DNA of 64,000 nucleotides from an uncultured Roseburia sp. Its GTDB lineage: Bacteria; Bacillota; Clostridia; Lachnospirales; Lachnospiraceae. Where the stretch lies: positions 1 to 64,000 of the forward strand of contig CANRSX010000016.1 of assembly GCA_947642555.1 (NCBI GenBank). The letters run 5' to 3'. The notes under the pieces are model-generated. The model searched no databases. It saw only the letters and a list, made by a program, of their open reading frames with translations, and had not been told where the DNA came from. Each line of letters opens with the position of its first letter. Position 1 is the stretch's first letter. The position numbers and the translations under genes were made by a program. Positions 21,114-57,661 of the stretch are shown piece by piece.

Positions 21114-21980
21114 TTATTCCTCCCCCGGATACATGGCCGCATGCCGGATCGGGAGCCATTCGCGGATCGCCTTTCTCAAAGACAGATCCCAGAAATCCCA
21201 TTCGTGCGCATAGCCGGGCACCTCCTCAAAAGAGGCGTCGTAGCCGAGCGCCTTTAATTCCTCATAGCCCTGCCGGCAGCGGCCCAGCGAACCGTCATTC
21301 CCGCCGCAGGTGAAGAAAAATTTCGTCGACATCTTCCCCGCTTCGGCATTCCGCTTTGCGGCTGCATATGCGTCATGGGGCCCGCCCTTAAAGGCATCCA
21401 GATCCCCGTAAATATATTTCATCTCCGGCATCGGCATCAGATCCGGATCCATCTCCTCTAACTGCTTCGGCTTCTTTAAGGGTGCGAAGTTCTTTATGAT
21501 ATCCGGATGACGGGCCGCTCCCGACATGATCAGCGCCGCCGCAAACCGGTCCGGATCCATCAGCGCCCATTTCATCGCGCCGTGGGCTCCCATGGAAAGC
21601 CCGCCGACAAAGTTGTCCTCCTGCCGGTCCGACAGCGCGAAGAGGCTCTGGCACATGACCGGAAGCTCTTTCGTTAAGTATTTCCAGTATTTCGGCCCGT
21701 GCTCTGCATCCGTGTAATCCGCATTGTGATCGGCGGGCATAACCACTGCCAGCTTGTGGTCATCCGCATAGCGGAGGATATTCGAAAAATTCACGTAATC
21801 CGAATCGTCCCCGCTGCCGCCGTGCAGCAGATACAGGGTCTGATACTGCATCCCCTTCACATAATTCTCCCCGGCGCGTCCTCCCATGACGTCCGCAAAG
21901 GAAAAGCTCGGCAGACAGATCGTGACATTTGTCTGCATTCCCAGATACTTGGATAAAAAGTTCATTTTAATCAGTGCCAT
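21114..21980 (-). CDS. Alpha/beta-hydrolase esterase (tributyrin esterase/EstA-like)
   Basis: LYLLHGGSGDDSDY, nucleophile elbow GGLSMGAHGA, C-terminal GYAHEWDFWD catalytic His. Confidence 0.85.
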   Translation of the reverse strand: MALIKMNFLSKYLGMQTNVTICLPSFSFADVMGGRAGENYVKGMQYQTLYLLHGGSGDDSDYVNFSNILRYADDHKLAVVMPADHNADYTDAEHGPKYWKYLTKELPVMCQSLFALSDRQEDNFVGGLSMGAHGAMKWALMDPDRFAAALIMSGAARHPDIIKNFAPLKKPKQLEEMDPDLMPMPEMKYIYGDLDAFKGGPHDAYAAAKRNAEAGKMSTKFFFTCGGNDGSLGRCRQGYEELKALGYDASFEEVPGYAHEWDFWDLSLRKAIREWLPIRHAAMYPGEE

Positions 21981-24222: not shown

Positions 24223-25083
24223 TTACAGATAGGAAAAAGGCTCCCCCGCATCCAGAAAGACCGCCGGGATTCCCTCCGTGATCGGAGCCAGCCAGTCGGG
24301 CAGATATTTCATCCCCCACTCCTCACTGCGCTCATGCCCGAGCACCAGCATCCCCTTATTCATGCCGAGCATCGCCGCGTCGCGCACGTAAGCCGACAGG
24401 GTCCACTCCGTGATATCCCCGCAGATCACGACATCGATGTTTTCCCGGTCCATCTGAATCATGGGCGCCTCCTCCCGGCCGAGACCGAGACTGCCTCCGC
24501 CGACCAGCACCGACACACGACGCACCGGCATGTCCGGATTGCCGACGATCTGCACCACATCCATGCCCGCCTTTTCCTTAAAGAAACCGCACAGCTCCCG
24601 CAGCGTCGTCTCCGGCAGCTCATAGACCGCGCCGAAATGTCTCCAGAACTCCGCCTTTGCGGGATCATTTTCTCCATACTTTTCTACATCTGTCATGTTC
24701 GTGCGATACGCCTCCCAGCCGAAGGCGCGGTCAAACCCTGTATAGATCTCGTCGGTGTGCCCGATGTGCATGTGATCGTGAAAGCGCCAGATCGCAATCT
24801 GTTTTTCCTCAATAAGCCGCCGCTTCTCCTGATAGACCGGATCGCATTCCACCCAGTCCGTCTGATCCGCCCCGGTAAACCAGGTGGGCTCGTGGGTGAT
24901 AATAAAATTGACCCCCCGGGCCGCAGCCTCGCGGATCACCTCTACGGTGGCCATAAAGGTACAGCCGATCTTTTTTACCTCCATCCCCGGATCGCCGGCC
25001 ATCAGCTGATCACAGGTCTGATCCAGGGGCAGGTTTACCCCTGTCTTTTCCTTTATTCTGTCAATAAGTTCCTGTACGGTCAT
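24223..25083 (-). CDS. Nif3-like dinuclear metal-centre hexameric protein
   Basis: MTVQELIDRIKEKTGVNL, FIITHEPTWFTGAD, WRFHDHMHIGH, DVVICGDITEW. Confidence 0.85.
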   Translation of the reverse strand: MTVQELIDRIKEKTGVNLPLDQTCDQLMAGDPGMEVKKIGCTFMATVEVIREAAARGVNFIITHEPTWFTGADQTDWVECDPVYQEKRRLIEEKQIAIWRFHDHMHIGHTDEIYTGFDRAFGWEAYRTNMTDVEKYGENDPAKAEFWRHFGAVYELPETTLRELCGFFKEKAGMDVVQIVGNPDMPVRRVSVLVGGGSLGLGREEAPMIQMDRENIDVVICGDITEWTLSAYVRDAAMLGMNKGMLVLGHERSEEWGMKYLPDWLAPITEGIPAVFLDAGEPFSYL

Positions 25084-25140
25084 CCTGTCCTCTTTTCTGC
25101 ACGGTATCGTGCGCATCTTTCTTCTGGTCCGGCTGCCGGA

Positions 25141-25938
25141 TCACTCCCCCAGCATCCACTGAATCGCCGGCTCCAGATACTGATTCCAGAACAGCCAGTT
25201 GTGCTCCCCCGGGCTCTCATAGTATGCATGCGGTACATTCCGCTCCTCTAAAAATCCATGGAACCCGCGGTTTTCCTGCAGCAGAAAATCCTCGGTACCG
25301 CATGCCATAAAAATCCCCGGAATCTCCTTCCCTACATCCTGAAGCCTTCTGACCAGCTCCTCGGGATTGTTCTCGCTCTTAAGCAGCTCCTCCGGCGCAC
25401 CGAAGACCATCCGGTAGTACTCATAATTCGCCACCGGATTTCCATTTCCGGGCTTCATATCCGCCACCTCGTGCATGATCAGCGCCGACGAGAGCGCAAA
25501 GGCCTTTGAAAAGGTCTCCGGGTACGCCAGCGCCGTATGCAGTGCGCCAAAACCGCCCATGGAAAGGCCGCCGATCAGGGTGTCCTCCCGGCGGGCCGAA
25601 AGGCCGAAGGTATCCCGCACATACGCCACGAGCTCCTTTCCGACATGTGTCGCATATCCGCGCCCGGTTTCCGGTCCGTCCAGATAAAAGCTGTTTTCCC
25701 CTGACGGACAGACCACCGCCAGGTTATACGCTGCGGAAAACTCCTGAATCCTGCTTCCGTACAGCCAGTCACTGCAGCCCCCCGTGTACCCGTGCAATAA
25801 AAACAGTGTCTTCGCCGGACGCTTAAAGTGAGGATTCTCCTCCCGCATCATCTCCGGCAGATCGTTTGGCAGGATCACCTCAAAGGGTACCATCCTGCTC
25901 AGTGTCTCTGAGTGAAACTCCATTCGTGCTGTTGCCAT
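25141..25938 (-). CDS. Alpha/beta-hydrolase esterase
   Basis: FLLHGYTGGCSDWLYGS, GGLSMGGFGALHTAL, C-terminal GEHNWLFWNQYLEPAIQWML. Confidence 0.88.
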   Translation of the reverse strand: MATARMEFHSETLSRMVPFEVILPNDLPEMMREENPHFKRPAKTLFLLHGYTGGCSDWLYGSRIQEFSAAYNLAVVCPSGENSFYLDGPETGRGYATHVGKELVAYVRDTFGLSARREDTLIGGLSMGGFGALHTALAYPETFSKAFALSSALIMHEVADMKPGNGNPVANYEYYRMVFGAPEELLKSENNPEELVRRLQDVGKEIPGIFMACGTEDFLLQENRGFHGFLEERNVPHAYYESPGEHNWLFWNQYLEPAIQWMLGE

Positions 25939-25943
25939 AATCT

Positions 25944-26711
25944 CTATTCTCCTCTCTCTTCCCATTCCAGCATCACCACCGACCTGTCATCCGTGGATCC
26001 GCCTGCCACGGCCTCGTTTGCAAGCTCCGGCAGAAGCTCCTCCGCCGGCCGGCCGCTTCCCATCAGCTCCGCAAGCTTCTCCGGCGGAATATGGTCATGA
26101 ATCCCGTCCGACGTCAGGAAAAAGCGCTTTGTGCCGGGCAGGTAGATTTCCTCTGTCTCCAGCCGTTTTGCAAATCCGGCCTCCGGCATTCCGACATAAG
26201 CCGTGAGCGCCTCCCCGCCTTTCACCCCGTCTAAGGAATCAATCTCACCGTTTTCCAGCCAGTCGTTTTTCTGATTGTGATCCACCGTCAGCTGCATCAC
26301 ATGTCCGGCATCCCCGGTCACCTGGTAGAGCCTGCTGTTCCCCGCCCACAGGACGTAAGCCTTCTCTCCCAGCCGGTAAAATCCGACAAAGGTAGAGGCC
26401 ATCCCGCGGCATTTCTCCGTGCCCCGGGCGATCTGCGCAATGGTCTCATTTACCTGCGCCAGCCGGATCCGCAGCGCTTCCACCGGCAGGTTCTCCCCGC
26501 CCGCCTGGGACAGCAGCGACGCCGTAAGCCCGGAGGCCGCCTCCCCCGCGCGGTGTCCTCCCACGCCGTCCGCGACGCCCAGCAGAAAATTCTGCGGCAC
26601 CGCGATCCGGATGGAACCGCTGCTCATCACAAGATGGCTGAGCAGCACCGTATCCTGACAGACGCCGTTCCTGTGGTGTTCTCCCTTTTTTACATATGCG
26701 TATACGATCAT
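25944..26711 (-). CDS. PP2C-family serine/threonine protein phosphatase
   Basis: GVADGVGGHRAGEAASGL, STFVGFYRLGEKAYVLWAGNSRLYQV, FLTSDGIHDHI, STDDRSVVML. Confidence 0.93.
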   Translation of the reverse strand: MIVYAYVKKGEHHRNGVCQDTVLLSHLVMSSGSIRIAVPQNFLLGVADGVGGHRAGEAASGLTASLLSQAGGENLPVEALRIRLAQVNETIAQIARGTEKCRGMASTFVGFYRLGEKAYVLWAGNSRLYQVTGDAGHVMQLTVDHNQKNDWLENGEIDSLDGVKGGEALTAYVGMPEAGFAKRLETEEIYLPGTKRFFLTSDGIHDHIPPEKLAELMGSGRPAEELLPELANEAVAGGSTDDRSVVMLEWEERGE

Positions 26712-26763
26712 CCGATTCTCCTTTTATTCTGCCAGTCAGAACCGCTTTGCTGCTCTGGCCCTG

Positions 26764-28233
26764 TCACCTTCCCGCTGTCTGGGGTGTGCGCAGATAGAGG
26801 GCGTGCATCGTCTCCAGCGTGTCTGACGTAAACAGCCGCTCCTTGATCTCCTGATAGCGCTCCCTGGTGATCTCCTCCACCACGCCGTCCACCGGCTCCT
26901 CGGTATCCGGGTCGCAGTGGCTGGCGTCGTTCCTGGCGATGCGCACCATGTGAAGCACATTCAGCGCCTCATCCATGCGCCGCGCAAAGCCGACATCCCG
27001 CCCAAAGCCCGCCGCCCGGAGAATCCGCGCCTTCGCACCGTTATTCCGGCAGAGGCCTAAGATGTCATTCTGATTTAATCTGCCTGATTTGTCCCGGTGG
27101 AGTCTGGCGTAGGCGTCATGATTAAAGGTTTCCGCCACCCTTGCGATCTCTCCCATCACAAAGCCCTCCACCGCTTTTCCGAGAAAGCTCATCGGCCCTG
27201 CGTAATCCCCGAGTCCGATGGCCTCACAGGCATTCTCATAAAAAGCCGCCTGGTAGAGCAGATGCCCCCGCCGCTCCCTGGCATTAAAAAACTCCAGCTT
27301 CTTCCGGTATCCCTCCGAGCCCTCCTCGAGCACCGACTTTAAAAAACCTCGGATGTATTCCTCCCGCGTCACCGGCGCCACCTCCGGCACCCGGGCCGAC
27401 AAACGATCTTCGTAGTCGATTCTTCCTTCATCCGCGCGGATTCTTAAATCATCGGGGCTGATCGCGGCGACAGCTCCGTTGATCCGCTGTATGTCCCCCT
27501 GGATCTGTGTCAGGCTCTCGTTTGCCAGCACCACACCCCGGTAGGTCTCGCTGGTCTTCTGCCGGATCTCCTCCATAAAATCCTGCAGGATATCCCATTG
27601 CACCGGATCCGACGCGGCAGCCGCGGGCTTCACCGGAAGATTGTCCTCCCCCGCTGCCAGGATCCGCACGTCGATGGTCTGGTCCGACGCGTTTCTCCCG
27701 CCAAACCGGAGCACATCGCCCCCGGACAGCTCGCGGATCTCGTCTTTTTTCAGCCGCTCCTGGTTCACATACACCGCGGATTTCTGTCCCGTGTCCCGGC
27801 AGTAGCCCACAAAGAGCCGGTCCTGATCGATGTGCAGCTCGACGTTGTAGCGGCTGATACAGGCGTAATGCCGGTCGATCTCCCCGCTGCCGCTACTGAA
27901 AAAGAATCTGCTGTCTGTGGTAAACGCGATCCGGCCAAGCACCAGCCCCTCCGGCCCGATGGGAATACGGGTCACCTTCGCCTGCACCGGCTTTCCCTTT
28001 TCATACCTCGTAGCCGTAATATAAAACAGCGGCTCCGGCTCTTCCCAGGGTTCCTCCTCGTCGTCGTTCCAGCTTATGGCCTCCGTCTCCACGCCAAAGG
28101 GTTTTTCCTCCTCCTTTAAAAAGCTCTCCGCCCGGGGCATCTGATTCTCCCAGGAATCCGGCTCTGATGCCGGCAGATGCCGAAACACCGGCTTACGCTG
28201 ATAATACCTCGTATTCTGATCTGAAGCGCCCAT
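26764..28233 (-). CDS. FHA domain protein with C-terminal RNDASH (HEPN/DUF4145-like) region
   Basis: FHA-like segment LVLGRIAFTTDSRFFFSSGSGEIDRHYACISRYNVELHI...VYVNQERLKKDEIRELSGGDVLRFGG; C-terminal VLHMVRIARNDASHCDPD; RBS AAGGAG. Confidence 0.8.
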   Translation of the reverse strand: MGASDQNTRYYQRKPVFRHLPASEPDSWENQMPRAESFLKEEEKPFGVETEAISWNDDEEEPWEEPEPLFYITATRYEKGKPVQAKVTRIPIGPEGLVLGRIAFTTDSRFFFSSGSGEIDRHYACISRYNVELHIDQDRLFVGYCRDTGQKSAVYVNQERLKKDEIRELSGGDVLRFGGRNASDQTIDVRILAAGEDNLPVKPAAAASDPVQWDILQDFMEEIRQKTSETYRGVVLANESLTQIQGDIQRINGAVAAISPDDLRIRADEGRIDYEDRLSARVPEVAPVTREEYIRGFLKSVLEEGSEGYRKKLEFFNARERRGHLLYQAAFYENACEAIGLGDYAGPMSFLGKAVEGFVMGEIARVAETFNHDAYARLHRDKSGRLNQNDILGLCRNNGAKARILRAAGFGRDVGFARRMDEALNVLHMVRIARNDASHCDPDTEEPVDGVVEEITRERYQEIKERLFTSDTLETMHALYLRTPQTAGR

Positions 28234-28260
28234 CTGATTCTCCTTTATCCGTCAATTATC

Positions 28261-30039
28261 TTATTTTTTCATGCCGCGGATCCGCGCAAAGAAGCCGAAC
28301 CGCTCTTTCTTCCCGGGCTTCGCAGGCACCTCTTTTTTCTCCGCCGGTGCGTCCTCTTTTTCCAAAAAACCTTCGTAGTACTCAAATCCACCTTTTCCGT
28401 AAAAAGGGCGGAAGCGCTGTCTGGCATTCAGAATCGCCTGTCCCTGCCGGTTCTTAAAATTCTCCCCGGCAGCCCGTTTAAACATTCCGCGCACCTCCCA
28501 CTTCAGCTGCGGATCCATCCTGATCTGTTCCGTCAGTTCCTGAAAATAATACTCCAGCCAGCACATCGCCAGCTCGTCGTCTATCTCATACCGCATTCCG
28601 CAAAGCGGCGTTCCCTCCAGCGCCTCCTTCGTCGAGGGCAGGCCGGGACAGTCCGCCTCCGATCCCGACAGCATCTCTTCCCATGTCTTCCCTGACACGA
28701 AACACTCCGGATCTTTCGCATACTGGGCCAGCTGCTCAAAGGCCAGCAGGTGTGACAGTTCCCGTATCAGCTCTTCCCCGAAATGCTGCGGATGTATCAC
28801 GCCGGTCCTCTCCCAGTTTTTCTGTATATAAAACCCGCACAGCTCCCACATCAGCGTGATGACAGGCACACCCGTCCTGACCGTCCCGTCCTCCGCCTCC
28901 ATACGGGTGACAGCTCTCCCTTTTTGGGGATCCCATACAGAAGCGCCCGGCGGCAGCTTCTGATGTATTTCCTCAACCGACACCTGAAACTGACGGGACT
29001 TTGTATAGTTCCGGATCCCGGCGTCAAACATTTCCCTGTATTCCGCCGCCTGGGGCGAGTCCGACCATTCTGGCAGATATGGCTCCACATGAAAAACACT
29101 GCAGTGGCGAAGATATTCCGGGAGCCCTTCTTTTAATGCATCCCGCATCTTAAGATGATAGCCATTCTCCTTCATCGCGCGCTCAAAGCAGTCTTTCCAC
29201 AGCTTCAGAAATCCCGCCGGCAGCTGCGCCTTCCCGTCCCACCGGAAAAGAACGCCCAGATAAAAAAATTCCCCCCGGCAGTCATACCCGTCCGCCGCAA
29301 TGCATTTCGTCAGCTTCAGCGCCCGATCGGGAATATCCTCCGCCTGGAACGCATCCAGAAGCTTCTCCGCCGTCTTCCAAAGACTCTCCGCCTCCGCCCT
29401 GTCCGTAAAGTAAAGCTGCGCCGCGCTCTGCTGCAGCAGAGACGCCTCCACCGCGGTCAGACAGGCGGCTGTCTCCGAATCCATGTACCGGTCCAGATCG
29501 CTTCGCGACAGATATAATTCAAATATCCGGACCGCCTCGGCATTCTGTGTCGGCTCCCGGGGAACTATGGTCTGCAGCAGCCAGTATTTCGCCTGCACGG
29601 TCAGATCCTGTGTCTGGCAGGGATCTGCCGCTGCTCCATTTCCCGCCAGAACCCTGCGCTCCGCCTTCTCCAGCTGCAGGATATCCCCCAGCAGCCTTGC
29701 CGCCTCAAGACCCCCGCTTCTGTCCGGCGCAAGGAATTCGATCCGTGCCTCACAATCCGCGATTTCCTGGTTTTGCCTGCTCATTTCCTGTTTCACAGAA
29801 TCAGTCCGCACAAGGGTCTGGCCGCCGTAGGCAAACATCTCCGCCAAAAGCCTGATCCGTTCCTCTTTTTTCTCAAGCTCTCGTTTTGGCTTTTTCAGAT
29901 TCTTTAACTGTTTTTTCACTCTGCCGTATTCGGCTGCCCTCTCTTTTTGCCCCTGCGCCTGCTCCCGTTTCTGCTCCAGTTCAGAATTGAATGCATTCAG
30001 AACCTTTTGTAATTTCTTCCGATCCGGTTTCCTGTTCAT
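28261..30039 (-). CDS. Uncharacterised 592-aa protein, N-terminal coiled coil and basic C-terminal tail
   Basis: Long ORF, ATGA overlap with the upstream kinase, same operon as FHA and PP2C; no recognised domain. Confidence 0.75.
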   Translation of the reverse strand: MNRKPDRKKLQKVLNAFNSELEQKREQAQGQKERAAEYGRVKKQLKNLKKPKRELEKKEERIRLLAEMFAYGGQTLVRTDSVKQEMSRQNQEIADCEARIEFLAPDRSGGLEAARLLGDILQLEKAERRVLAGNGAAADPCQTQDLTVQAKYWLLQTIVPREPTQNAEAVRIFELYLSRSDLDRYMDSETAACLTAVEASLLQQSAAQLYFTDRAEAESLWKTAEKLLDAFQAEDIPDRALKLTKCIAADGYDCRGEFFYLGVLFRWDGKAQLPAGFLKLWKDCFERAMKENGYHLKMRDALKEGLPEYLRHCSVFHVEPYLPEWSDSPQAAEYREMFDAGIRNYTKSRQFQVSVEEIHQKLPPGASVWDPQKGRAVTRMEAEDGTVRTGVPVITLMWELCGFYIQKNWERTGVIHPQHFGEELIRELSHLLAFEQLAQYAKDPECFVSGKTWEEMLSGSEADCPGLPSTKEALEGTPLCGMRYEIDDELAMCWLEYYFQELTEQIRMDPQLKWEVRGMFKRAAGENFKNRQGQAILNARQRFRPFYGKGGFEYYEGFLEKEDAPAEKKEVPAKPGKKERFGFFARIRGMKK

Positions 30040-32090
30040 CCCGATGTCATCCCTCTCTCTTTTGCCAGCTTCTCACACATAGCCGCCTCTGGACGCTTCA
30101 CGGTATCCTTCGCCTCCATGAGAAACGCGTAATAATCGACCCTCAGCTTTCCGTCCCCCGTGTAACACGCCTGCTGGATCCGCAGCGCCTTATTCAGATC
30201 CGTCTCATACAGCTCTTTTAACCAGGCAAGGAAATTCCGGTTTTCCTCAAAATCCCTGCCAGCCCGGTTCAGCCAGGCGCTGCCCTGCATACAGAAGGAA
30301 AGCCGGTACAGCTTCGCAATTACGCATGTCTTGTTTCCTTTGGCAAGCTCTTCCGTTATCTGTTTCGCCAGCGCCATATCATGCGCTCCTATCCCCCATG
30401 CATCCGGATAATTCTGGAAAAACCGCTCCACCGTACCTGAGGCAAACATCTCCACAAGCTCCTGATACAGATCCTTCGGCCCGTCTTTCACCGGTTTCGG
30501 AAGACGGTATCCGCCGCCACTTCTCTTCTTTTCTTCCAGCAATACTGCATAGATCGTCCGCCCGAACTCCTCTCTCGTGGCAAAAACATGATTGCGGTAA
30601 CGCAGCCTGCGCTCATAGAACTCCGCCGGCAGATAAGTCTCCATGATCATCTGATCAAAGATCTCTTCCTTCCTGGCCTCATCCGCCTGCATCTCCTCCC
30701 GGACCTGGTCAAAAAGATTCGCCACATCCTCGCCGAATCTGCTAAAGATCCGGCTCCATCTCGCGTTGCGCAGCAGGTTTTCGATCGTCTCGTCCCAGTG
30801 CTCCAGAAACAGAACCGCCATCTCCTCCGTGGAGTGGATCTTTACCGGCCGCTCCTGCCCGTATTTTACGACGACCTCCGTCTGTGGGCCGGCCACAGTC
30901 TTTTGTACTCTCGCAGTTCCCCGCTGCATTTCCGTCTGCCCGGATTGTCCGCCCGCAGCCTCCTGACCAGATGTCTGCACGCCAAAACCGGCGCCTCTCT
31001 GCTGCTCCGCCGCGATCTCGAGGCCGGTTCGGATGCCGCGGGCCGCGTCATGGTTCCCTTCTTTTACATATGTAATCCATGTTCTGATCTGCTTTGCGCC
31101 CCAGCGGTTATGGTTTCTCTCCCGCCGGTCCGTATCGCTGTAGATCGTGCCCTCAAAAAAACGCGCCAGGTAGTCCGGCAGCTGCTGCGGCAGCAAAAGG
31201 CCGTACCAGGTGTAGGCGGATTCCATATTCCGCCCCCGGTAGGCCTGATCCTCCGCCGTGTCGTTCATCTCGTCCATCCGCGGATAACGCCCCGCCACAA
31301 ATTCCGCCATGGTAAAGCCGAAGGAATAATAGTCTGTGGCGGCGCTGACCTTCGCCTTCCGCGCGTTCGTGAGCTCCGGCGCCGTGTAGCCGCGGGTCAC
31401 CATCGTGGCCGTCACGCTGCTCTCACCCTCCGGATGCCGTTCCCCGCCGACTCCGGCTCCGAAGTCGATAAGCACCAGGTGGTTTTTCCCGTCCGTTCCC
31501 TCGTACTGCATGATGTTGTCCGGCTTGATATCGGAATGAAAGATATGCTGCCCGTGCAGCGCAAAAAGCGCGTCATTCAGCCCCTCCGCCTCCTCGAGGA
31601 ACAGCCGTTCAAACAGTTTTTTATTTTTGCCAAAGGACTCGAATTCCAGGAAACCGTCATAGGGCTCATAAGCGCGCATCACAACCATATAGTACTTGTG
31701 ATCCTCCGTGATGCCGTCCGCGAAGATTTTTGCCAGGTGCGGGTGATTCAGCCCCATTACGGTCCGGTTCACCTCATGGATCTTCTCGATCCTCGCCCGT
31801 GTATTTTTCGCCAGCGGATAAAGCTTTGCCACCGCGGACACGCCGTCCGGCAGCTTCCCCTCCCGCAGAAAACAGTCGTATACCTTCGCCTGGCCGCCCT
31901 TATTCCGCGGAAGGCTCCCTTTTGGAACGTACCAGGGCCCCATCACAGCCCGGCCAGACAGCGGCTGGCCCGATGCGCCGGCGGCCGGCTGTACCCGGGC
32001 GTCTGTCTTCCGCTCCTCTTCCTGCTCCAGATATGTCGTGGGAACCGCCTCATACGCCGGCCCGCCCGGTTTCTTTTCCGATGTATTCAT
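30036..32090 (-). CDS. Eukaryotic-like serine/threonine protein kinase (no TM segment seen)
   Basis: GGQAKVYDCF Gly-rich loop, AVAKLYP Lys, HSDIKPDNIM catalytic loop, VLIDFGAGVGG DFG motif, TRGYTAPE P+1 loop. Confidence 0.95.
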   Translation of the reverse strand: MNTSEKKPGGPAYEAVPTTYLEQEEERKTDARVQPAAGASGQPLSGRAVMGPWYVPKGSLPRNKGGQAKVYDCFLREGKLPDGVSAVAKLYPLAKNTRARIEKIHEVNRTVMGLNHPHLAKIFADGITEDHKYYMVVMRAYEPYDGFLEFESFGKNKKLFERLFLEEAEGLNDALFALHGQHIFHSDIKPDNIMQYEGTDGKNHLVLIDFGAGVGGERHPEGESSVTATMVTRGYTAPELTNARKAKVSAATDYYSFGFTMAEFVAGRYPRMDEMNDTAEDQAYRGRNMESAYTWYGLLLPQQLPDYLARFFEGTIYSDTDRRERNHNRWGAKQIRTWITYVKEGNHDAARGIRTGLEIAAEQQRGAGFGVQTSGQEAAGGQSGQTEMQRGTARVQKTVAGPQTEVVVKYGQERPVKIHSTEEMAVLFLEHWDETIENLLRNARWSRIFSRFGEDVANLFDQVREEMQADEARKEEIFDQMIMETYLPAEFYERRLRYRNHVFATREEFGRTIYAVLLEEKKRSGGGYRLPKPVKDGPKDLYQELVEMFASGTVERFFQNYPDAWGIGAHDMALAKQITEELAKGNKTCVIAKLYRLSFCMQGSAWLNRAGRDFEENRNFLAWLKELYETDLNKALRIQQACYTGDGKLRVDYYAFLMEAKDTVKRPEAAMCEKLAKERGMTSG

Positions 32091-32309
32091 GTAACTTCTC
32101 CTTCACTGTCCGCTCCGTGGTCTTACGCTTACGCAAACAGCGGCGCTCTGTCAGTTTTCCTTCTATCCTATCATAGTGCACTTCCGATTATTTGCCAAGG
32201 AAAAATTACTGACAGCGGCGTCCACATTTTGGCTTTACTTTTTTGTCGAATGATTTTATATTTAAGTTATATCAGCAGGGCATGATCCCGGAAAGGCGGT
32301 GCGGACGCG

Positions 32310-55751: not shown

Positions 55752-55790
55752 AAAAAGTTTCCGAAGAAACTATTTCTTCGGAAACTTTTT
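55752..55790. terminator. Bidirectional terminator at the 3' end of the ATPase-Toprim cassette
   Basis: Perfect 18-bp stem AAAAAGTTTCCGAAGAAA / TTTCTTCGGAAACTTTTT with a 3-nt loop. Confidence 0.85.
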
Positions 55791-56421
55791 ATAACAGGCC
55801 TTTTTCCAGCAGCATCCTCCGTATCCGTTTTATCGCGCCTGTCAGACTATCCGAATTCACACATGCCTCATCAATATTCCAAATCTCGTCGATATATTTT
55901 CCCCATATCGAGTTATATGTAGAAGGTTTTTTCCCGGGTCGTTCAAAAGAAAGCGCATTTCTTATCGAGACCGACTTTGATAATGGTGCTATCTCTGTCA
56001 GTATATACAGACTTGTTTTATAAGGAATATGATCTGAAATTTCTTTATCCACCCTGTGTTTTGAAGGAATCATATCAATCGGTATCCCAAAATATTCCGC
56101 CATACCTGTTCTGTCAGCCAGCAGCCAGGATTCCGCTTCATCAACAGCAAAATTGATCGCGGCATAATCAACATTTCTCTCTTTCTGCAGATACCGGTTC
56201 AGAAGATCTATGATACAGTTGTCATCCGAATCAAAAACCCCCACTACCGGATATTTCTTTGCAAAATTAAGCATTGTCCCAAGTGACTCAAGGGCCCGTG
56301 TACCATGCACGCGGAACGTCAGATCTTCAAATTCAGGTTCAGTCTCAGGCAGACAAAATCTGACCAGACGTTTTGCAATCTGTTTTGTCACAAAATCTTC
56401 CCCGCCAATATATATGGTCAT
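55789..56421 (-). CDS. Toprim-like protein (DUF4435/DUF4276/RloB-like) paired with an AAA ATPase
   Basis: MTIYIGGEDFVTKQIAKRLV (acidic residue near the start), VVGVFDSDDN (DxD), FAVDEAESWLLADRTGMAEYFGIP; start ATG 56421 with GGGAGG SD. Confidence 0.65.
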   Translation of the reverse strand: MTIYIGGEDFVTKQIAKRLVRFCLPETEPEFEDLTFRVHGTRALESLGTMLNFAKKYPVVGVFDSDDNCIIDLLNRYLQKERNVDYAAINFAVDEAESWLLADRTGMAEYFGIPIDMIPSKHRVDKEISDHIPYKTSLYILTEIAPLSKSVSIRNALSFERPGKKPSTYNSIWGKYIDEIWNIDEACVNSDSLTGAIKRIRRMLLEKGLL

Positions 56422-56434
56422 TCTGCCTCCCGAT

Positions 56435-57661
56435 CTATAAAAAGTCAAATAGCGACAATTGTCCATCCATGATTCCTTTCGGTGTAACTTTGGGAATCAC
56501 TGCATCCGCCGGCGTATACCCTGCTTCGATTTTTGCTCTTACAGCGTCACTCGAACTGGCCTTTTCTATCGTTGTTCCCTCTTTTCCTGGCTCAAGTATC
56601 ATAATTTCATCCAGATCAATCGTATCTGTATCCAGAAGATCATAACTATGGGATGAAATTATAACCTGACGATTTTTGGCAATATTACTTTTCTGGGCAT
56701 TTGCAATAAACATCGGCAACTGTTTCACTATTTCGGAATGCAGATACAATTCCGGTTCCTCCAGCAGCAGAACCCCTGATCCGTCTAAAATTGCCCATAT
56801 GATTCCCAGCAGTCTCAACGTGCCGTCTGAGAACTGATCTTCTCTTTGGTATGCTTCCTGCGGTCTGAAATGTTCGTATTTTACCTGCAGATGCGGCCGG
56901 CCATTTTCATCCTGCTTAAATTCCAGATTTGAGAACTGCGGTACGGCCATTTTTAAAATCTTATTTATTATTTTCAGCCTGGAATCCCTTTTTCTTGCCG
57001 AAGTCGCCGATATACTTTCCAGCAGGTTTCTCCCATAAAAATCCTCCGTAGCTGCAGAAGGTAAAAATGAATCCGTCTCCCGTATCAGCTGCGGTATAAT
57101 GTTTACATATGAAATCTCTTTAAAGCAATCATACAGCACCCGGTATTCACCATTCATCGCCGGCTGCTCTAAAAAGGTAAACTGATTTGACAGATAATCT
57201 CCGGCAGCATATTTTCTGTCCAGCAATATTTTATCCTGACATGTGATTCGTTCCAGCCGGATATTAATGTCCCTGTTTTCCTGTTTTCCTGCCGCCGAAT
57301 TAAACTGCAGCTGGTATGTCCACTCAACAGCGCCATCCTTTTTTTCATCTGTCAGACGTACAAATATCTCGATATAATTCTGGCTTCTGGCATTCAGATA
57401 CCTTAATTTCTTTATTCCTCCCCGGGCATTGACTGCTTTTTGCAGACCATCTACTGTAACATCCTTTAAAAAGCGAAAGACATCCAGAAGATTCGATTTT
57501 CCGGCTGCGTTTGCTCCTATTATAAATGTTCTGTTTGTGAGTTCAAAATCAGCATTCCCAAAATTTCTCCAGTTTTTCAGCCCTAACTCCCGAATTTTCA
57601 ATGCGGTATCCTCCCCCGTTTTTACTAAAAGCATCGTAACATATTCCGCTGAAAATTTCAA
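56435..57661 (-). CDS. AAA family ATPase (AAA_15/AAA_21, OLD/RecF-like)
   Basis: FIIGANAAGKSNLLDVFRFL Walker A, DQFSDGTLRLLGI signature, GVLLLEEPELYLH Walker B, VIISSHSYDLL. Confidence 0.92.
   Translation of the reverse strand: MKFSAEYVTMLLVKTGEDTALKIRELGLKNWRNFGNADFELTNRTFIIGANAAGKSNLLDVFRFLKDVTVDGLQKAVNARGGIKKLRYLNARSQNYIEIFVRLTDEKKDGAVEWTYQLQFNSAAGKQENRDINIRLERITCQDKILLDRKYAAGDYLSNQFTFLEQPAMNGEYRVLYDCFKEISYVNIIPQLIRETDSFLPSAATEDFYGRNLLESISATSARKRDSRLKIINKILKMAVPQFSNLEFKQDENGRPHLQVKYEHFRPQEAYQREDQFSDGTLRLLGIIWAILDGSGVLLLEEPELYLHSEIVKQLPMFIANAQKSNIAKNRQVIISSHSYDLLDTDTIDLDEIMILEPGKEGTTIEKASSSDAVRAKIEAGYTPADAVIPKVTPKGIMDGQLSLFDFL

Follow-up and report, generated by a model that had tools for sequence, protein, structure and literature searches.

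A kinase, FHA and PP2C operon of an uncultured Roseburia sp. as a likely accessory phosphorylation switch

Introduction

In KKP, the toxicity of an unbalanced kinase is held by a PP2C phosphatase, whose gene comes first and is accompanied by genes for two kinases, one of them with a cold-shock domain (CSD), and this arrangement is known from Gram-negatives only (PMC11341870). A kinase, a PP2C and an FHA protein make up the threonine phosphorylation pathway of the T6SS (PpkA-PppA-Fha), the PASTA/PrkC-Stp1 pair has a membrane kinase with PASTA repeats, and the TerY-P triad combines a vWA protein with a kinase and a PP2C. FHA proteins are commonly adaptors. An operon for soluble proteins that write, read and erase Ser/Thr phosphate would constitute a compact signalling switch in a gut-type Firmicute. 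Here, we describe a candidate from an uncultured Roseburia sp., in which writer, reader and eraser share an operon whose genes overlap or lie close together. The window referred to below is the whole stretch analyzed (64,000 nucleotides of contig CANRSX010000016.1).

Organization of the Operon and Its Products

All four ORFs of the block were shown to be intact and to run in the same direction on the minus strand, from 32090 down to 25944, in agreement with the original prediction of a kinase, 592-aa orphan, FHA and PP2C operon. The features of the region are:

32170–32198, minus strand: sigma-70-like candidate promoter, TTGGCA-17-TATGAT (10/12 consensus match)
30036–32090, minus strand: Ser/Thr kinase, 684 aa (Pfam Pkinase, catalytic residues, relative in UBA1729)
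28261–30039, minus strand: orphan protein, 592 aa (predicted N-terminal coiled coil, no profile match)
26764–28233, minus strand: FHA protein, 489 aa (Pfam FHA, E = 5.6e-4, at the cut-off)
26917–26934, minus strand: RNDASH, candidate HEPN Rx4H RNase motif (FHA protein residues 434–439)
25944–26711, minus strand: PP2C-type Ser/Thr phosphatase, 255 aa (Pfam PP2C, NCBIfam Stp1/IreP)
25141–25938, minus strand: alpha/beta-hydrolase esterase (Pfam Esterase, E = 3.4e-16), probably co-transcribed
24223–25116 (alternative start 25083), minus strand: DUF34/NIF3-family protein (Pfam DUF34_NIF3, E = 3.5e-18)

The sigma-70-like site, located some 80 nt ahead of the kinase gene, is a consensus match only and no proof of a promoter. 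The kinase gene is preceded by the ribosome-binding site GAAGGAGAAG and overlaps the orphan gene in an ATGA at 30036–30039, and the FHA and PP2C genes have the same ribosome-binding context, AAAGGAGAATC, ahead of each; both the overlap and the near-identical contexts had been predicted. Directly past the PP2C stop, a well-spaced Shine-Dalgarno sequence (SD), AGAGAGGAGAAT, precedes the esterase ATG at 25938, and 24 nt separate the esterase stop from the start of the NIF3-family gene at 25116, whose alternative start at 25083 has a closer SD. Because of this spacing and these ribosome-binding sites, the transcript probably continues past the PP2C gene through the esterase and NIF3-family genes, the latter probably being its last gene. 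Thus, the predicted four-gene extent holds for the co-directional block, but the transcript probably comprises six genes. A second Esterase-family (PF00756) gene was found at 21114–21980 (minus strand), within 5 kb of the one at 25141–25965 (minus strand).

The kinase matched Pfam Pkinase above the cut-off (E = 3.4e-20) and contained KGGQAKVY (64–71), K89, HSDIKPDN (185–192; HSD where HRD is usual), DFG (209–211) and APE (237–239), with catalytic K89, D187, N192 and D209 all present, as claimed previously for its catalytic motifs. Judged by its glycine loop, Lys, HxD, Asn, DFG and APE, it is a Hanks-type Ser/Thr kinase. The kinase domain (about 64–325) is followed by an RWGAKQIRTW motif (329–338) and a helical C-terminal domain (about 396–660). 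A TM segment was found in none of the four proteins (top 19-residue hydropathy mean 1.2), which includes the kinase, predicted to lack one.

The PP2C protein scored over the Pfam PP2C cut-off (2.3e-7) and matched NCBIfam Stp1/IreP with E = 1.8e-27, yet with 96 bits compared to the 230-bit cut-off. QD20, ADG (47–49), SDG (201–203) and DD (241–242) were present; the core metal ligands are intact, and the protein belongs to the PP2C phosphatases. Since the Asp of GDSR is replaced by Asn (GNSR), the protein may have a changed third metal site. The protein showed 71 bits to a PP2C from an Aristaeella lactis plasmid and 59 bits to the Stp1 of its own genome. Both the window PP2C and the plasmid PP2C had the variants GN[ST]R and DDRSV, and the sequences suggest that GN[ST]R PP2Cs represent a real subfamily.

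Comparison with Described Systems

No described system was matched at any curated cut-off applied to the sequences, and the module, acting like a kinase/phosphatase switch, is a member of none of the named systems tested. Like KKP, it has a Hanks-type kinase and a PP2C in a single operon, but there is only one kinase, the PP2C gene lies downstream of the kinase gene and no CSD is present, which places it outside KKP. The best PADLOC matches of the kinase were the MADS mad6 and PD-T4-6 kinases, in the kinase domain only; its 53.6 bits compared to the NCBIfam MADS6 cut-off of 460 bits, together with the lack of MADS partner genes, show that it is not a MADS member. The trio of kinase, PP2C and FHA is shared with the T6SS pathway; however, the neighbourhood is without T6SS genes, TagH was not matched and the kinase has no TM segment, so that membership of this pathway was rejected as well. 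In contrast to the membrane kinase of the PASTA/PrkC-Stp1 pair, the window kinase has no TM segment and reached 46 of the 450 bits required for PknB_PASTA. The real Stp1/PrkC pair of the genome was located on contigs C69/C44, and because the genome thus has its own pair elsewhere, the window operon is not the housekeeping system. Unlike in the TerY-P triad, no vWA match was found in the four window proteins, and the operon does not belong to this group either. Secretion genes were not found beside the block, consistent with the cytosolic phospho-signalling module without adjoining secretion genes proposed in the original prediction.

Genomic Context and Distribution

On its right, the block lies head-to-head with a divergent operon encoding FG-GAP, response-regulator, histidine-kinase and amidase-deacetylase proteins. 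This FG-GAP/two-component operon was also present in ten other genomes of the same genus. Among eight same-genus genomes examined, none had relatives of the kinase block within at least 12 kb upstream of the FG-GAP operon, and the esterase and NIF3-family genes were likewise not found beside it in eight same-genus relatives. As eight genomes keep the FG-GAP operon without any block gene beside it, the kinase block appears accessory at its site. A foreign origin judged by GC content was rejected, since the block showed no contrast to its flanks, and next to the block there was no integrase, phage gene, mobile element or dense defence island; the defence-island setting raised earlier did not materialize, as the block lies in no clear one. 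At 55789–57661 (minus strand), an AAA_21 ATPase gene (408 aa, 413 bits to PADLOC HEC-01A) is followed by a gene for a 225-aa HEC-01B match; from their sequences, these are a candidate HEC-01-like anti-phage pair, 24 kb from the block.

The distribution searches were performed on samples and required detectable similarity, so a fast-diverging protein could escape them. Among 299 family genomes, sampled with no more than one per genus in nearly all cases, the kinase had one strong relative, in Lachnospiraceae UBA1729, and this was its lone full-length relative (25% identity over 50–670, E = 1e-55, C-terminal domain included). Profile searches of class genomes with the C-terminal domain (about 390 genomes) or the whole kinase (283 genomes) returned only the window's own copy. 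The FHA protein had no relatives in 391 other genomes (392 sampled from the order); neither it nor its C-terminal domain matched plasmids or phages above chance, and it was absent from viral contigs in an exact-peptide scan. Five weak matches to the C-terminal domain from the phylum were rejected as short, one of them being probably a CCA-adding enzyme. For the orphan, no significant match was found in Pfam, NCBIfam, PADLOC or PDB, and relatives were absent from 97 other genomes (98 searched, 59 of the same genus) and from the genome contigs, viral contigs and plasmids searched. An orphan match in another genome (33% over 87 residues) was rejected because it fell inside the coiled coil of an RND transporter. 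The full four-gene module is represented by one genome. The co-conservation of the four genes, named in the original prediction as its own refutation test, thus failed as far as the test was run: none of the genomes searched held a relative of the orphan or of the FHA protein, and the neighbours of the kinase relative differ (see below). The system, ranked earlier among the strongest candidates for an undescribed one, is indeed undescribed, but is known from this single genome only.

Possible Output of the Switch

The FHA protein was predicted to consist of an FHA domain (about 98–190), a coiled linker (214–256) and a helical C-terminal domain (285–489). The FHA domain reached 20.7 bits in Pfam, exactly the curated cut-off of 20.7 bits (E = 5.6e-4); G99-R100 and S127-R128 were kept, and the His of SRxH was Asn (SRYN). 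Pfam had no match to the C-terminal domain. The single-sequence AlphaFold models (pLDDT 33 for the protein, 40 for the C-terminal domain), of which only the secondary structure is usable, gave no Foldseek match at E ≤ 0.001. In the low-confidence model of the C-terminal domain (pLDDT 40), RNDASH ends a predicted helix, after which come a loop and another helix.

HEPN proteins carry Rx4-6H where helix 3 ends, and the R is followed by a polar residue (PMC3710099). The placement of RNDASH, with N after R, is that described for this motif. A comparison profile built from ten DUF4145 (HEPN) proteins aligned to the C-terminal domain exactly at RNDASH with 3.0 bits, a score higher than for 1986 of 2000 shuffles (14 scored higher) and than for all 85 real decoy segments. 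The HEPN hhalign probability was 0.4%, and RNxxxH was present in 8% of shuffles. In comparison with HEPN RNases (PMC3710099), the domain, predicted to be all-helical, and its Rx4H, in which N follows R and which lies where a predicted helix ends, are alike, whereas there is no significant profile match and no confident structure, and the Ex3[KR] of HEPN is missing from helix 2. The modelled helices and the motif are suggestive of HEPN character, not of membership, and make an HEPN RNase output plausible. The predicted role of the C-terminal domain as output is thus weakly favoured, through the HEPN-like RNDASH.

A phospho-switch is the likely function of the operon. In a fuller form, which we hold tentatively and at somewhat below an even chance, it is an accessory cytosolic switch in which the kinase writes, the FHA domain reads, the PP2C erases and the FHA C-terminal domain responds, perhaps as an HEPN RNase. 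Starting from the gene order, the domains, the catalytic residues and the lack of TM segments, we infer a substrate, a signal, a direction of control and an RNase as follows. The kinase would phosphorylate itself and/or the orphan on Thr/Ser, the orphan being its likeliest partner because of the translational coupling of the two genes, with either the orphan or the C-terminal domain of the kinase as the sensor of the trigger signal. The FHA domain would then bind the phosphorylated partner, whereby the helical C-terminal domain, the likeliest effector and tentatively an HEPN-type RNase, would be repositioned or assembled, and the PP2C would strip the phosphate and hold the switch off. A narrower proposal, in which phosphothreonine read-out by FHA under kinase/PP2C control releases or assembles an HEPN RNase toxin, possibly anti-phage, seems unlikely. 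If the C-terminal domain were an RNase, protein phosphorylation would be tied directly to RNA cleavage.

A non-nucleolytic output, for which the FHA protein would serve as an adaptor (scaffold) while the output, e.g., in cell-envelope or metabolic control, would come from the orphan or from the esterase and NIF3-family proteins, is a serious possibility, although we consider it doubtful. It agrees with the common adaptor role of FHA proteins, with the marginal HEPN support, with the esterase gene and its good SD immediately after the PP2C gene, followed by NIF3, and with the head-to-head position of the block to the FG-GAP/amidase-deacetylase operon; against it, esterase and NIF3-family genes accompany the FG-GAP operon in 0/8 relatives.

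Rather unlikely is an anti-phage or toxin-antitoxin-like function in the manner of KKP, with a toxic unbalanced kinase and the PP2C as antitoxin. The sparse accessory distribution, the candidate HEC-01-like pair 24 kb off, the defence kinases (MADS mad6, PD-T4-6) as nearest PADLOC models and the precedent of kinase toxicity restrained by PP2C (PMC11341870) all point in this direction, but the PADLOC matches are limited to the kinase domain and far under NCBIfam cut-offs, KKP depends on a pair of kinases and on the setting of a Gram-negative prophage, and the block has the GC content of its surroundings and neither an integrase, a phage gene nor a dense defence island beside it. A defence role of the operon as such is plausible.

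A decaying or one-off cluster without dedicated module function, to which the missing co-conserved copy, the FHA domain at the cut-off with SRxN and the GNSR of the PP2C could point, is very unlikely given that all four ORFs are long and unbroken, with good SDs and with the catalytic residues in place, and that the PP2C GN[ST]R variant also occurs in the Aristaeella plasmid PP2C.

Related Kinase Clusters in Clostridia

On UBA1729 contig DCIJ01000026.1, the kinase gene is followed by genes for a coiled-coil/LRR_5 protein (783 aa) and a protein starting with MSGPK. This cluster resembles the window operon in the full-length kinase relative and in the gene with an N-terminal coiled coil directly next to it, and differs in the LRR_5 gene and the MSGPK protein and in having no FHA or PP2C on its truncated 6-kb contig. 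The similarity of the orphan to the second UBA1729 protein (shuffle p = 0.02) involved the coiled coil only and was not accepted as homology, and its match to an MSGPK profile was rejected (hhalign probability 1.1%). In the A. lactis plasmid (NZ_CP069422), the gene order was kinase, MSGPK, FHA, 4Fe-4S, ClpB-like AAA, PP2C, DUF6273 and kinase. Kinase, FHA and PP2C are together here as in the window, and kinase 2 has RWGxxx[VI]xxW, but the cluster contains two kinases and AAA ATPase, 4Fe-4S and MSGPK proteins; moreover, its FHA protein is short, separate and without the C-terminal domain, and an orphan relative is not found in the cluster. In the window's own genome, contig C24 (locus L020, 4525–16134) encodes an FtsK/EssC-like ATPase, a kinase, an MSGPK-like protein, a zinc-ribbon FHA protein and a ClpB-like AAA protein.

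The UBA1729 MSGPK protein has relatives in the Aristaeella plasmid cluster and on contig C24. Proteins of this family, starting with MSGPK (or MSS), recur beside kinases (L006, 4845–5849; L050, 7113–8405; L020 on C24, 7057–8217) and, where tested, matched neither Pfam nor NCBIfam. The kinases of all four clusters (window, UBA1729, Aristaeella and C24) have RWGxxx[VI]xxW in common, immediately behind the kinase domain. From these sequences, the window operon may belong, as a divergent member, to a loosely connected set of kinase modules in Clostridia, a lead drawn from this motif and a small number of pairwise similarities and not from a tree. The kinase thereby points to loosely related, apparently unnamed Clostridial clusters of RWG-W kinase, MSGPK, FHA, ClpB-like AAA and PP2C proteins. 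No account of FHA-HEPN or MSGPK clusters was found in the literature searched, an absence that is no proof. A second kinase-PP2C-FHA trio was detected in the same genome on contig C1 (6461–10787 of L021), near TadE-like genes and with a layout unrelated to that of the window operon.
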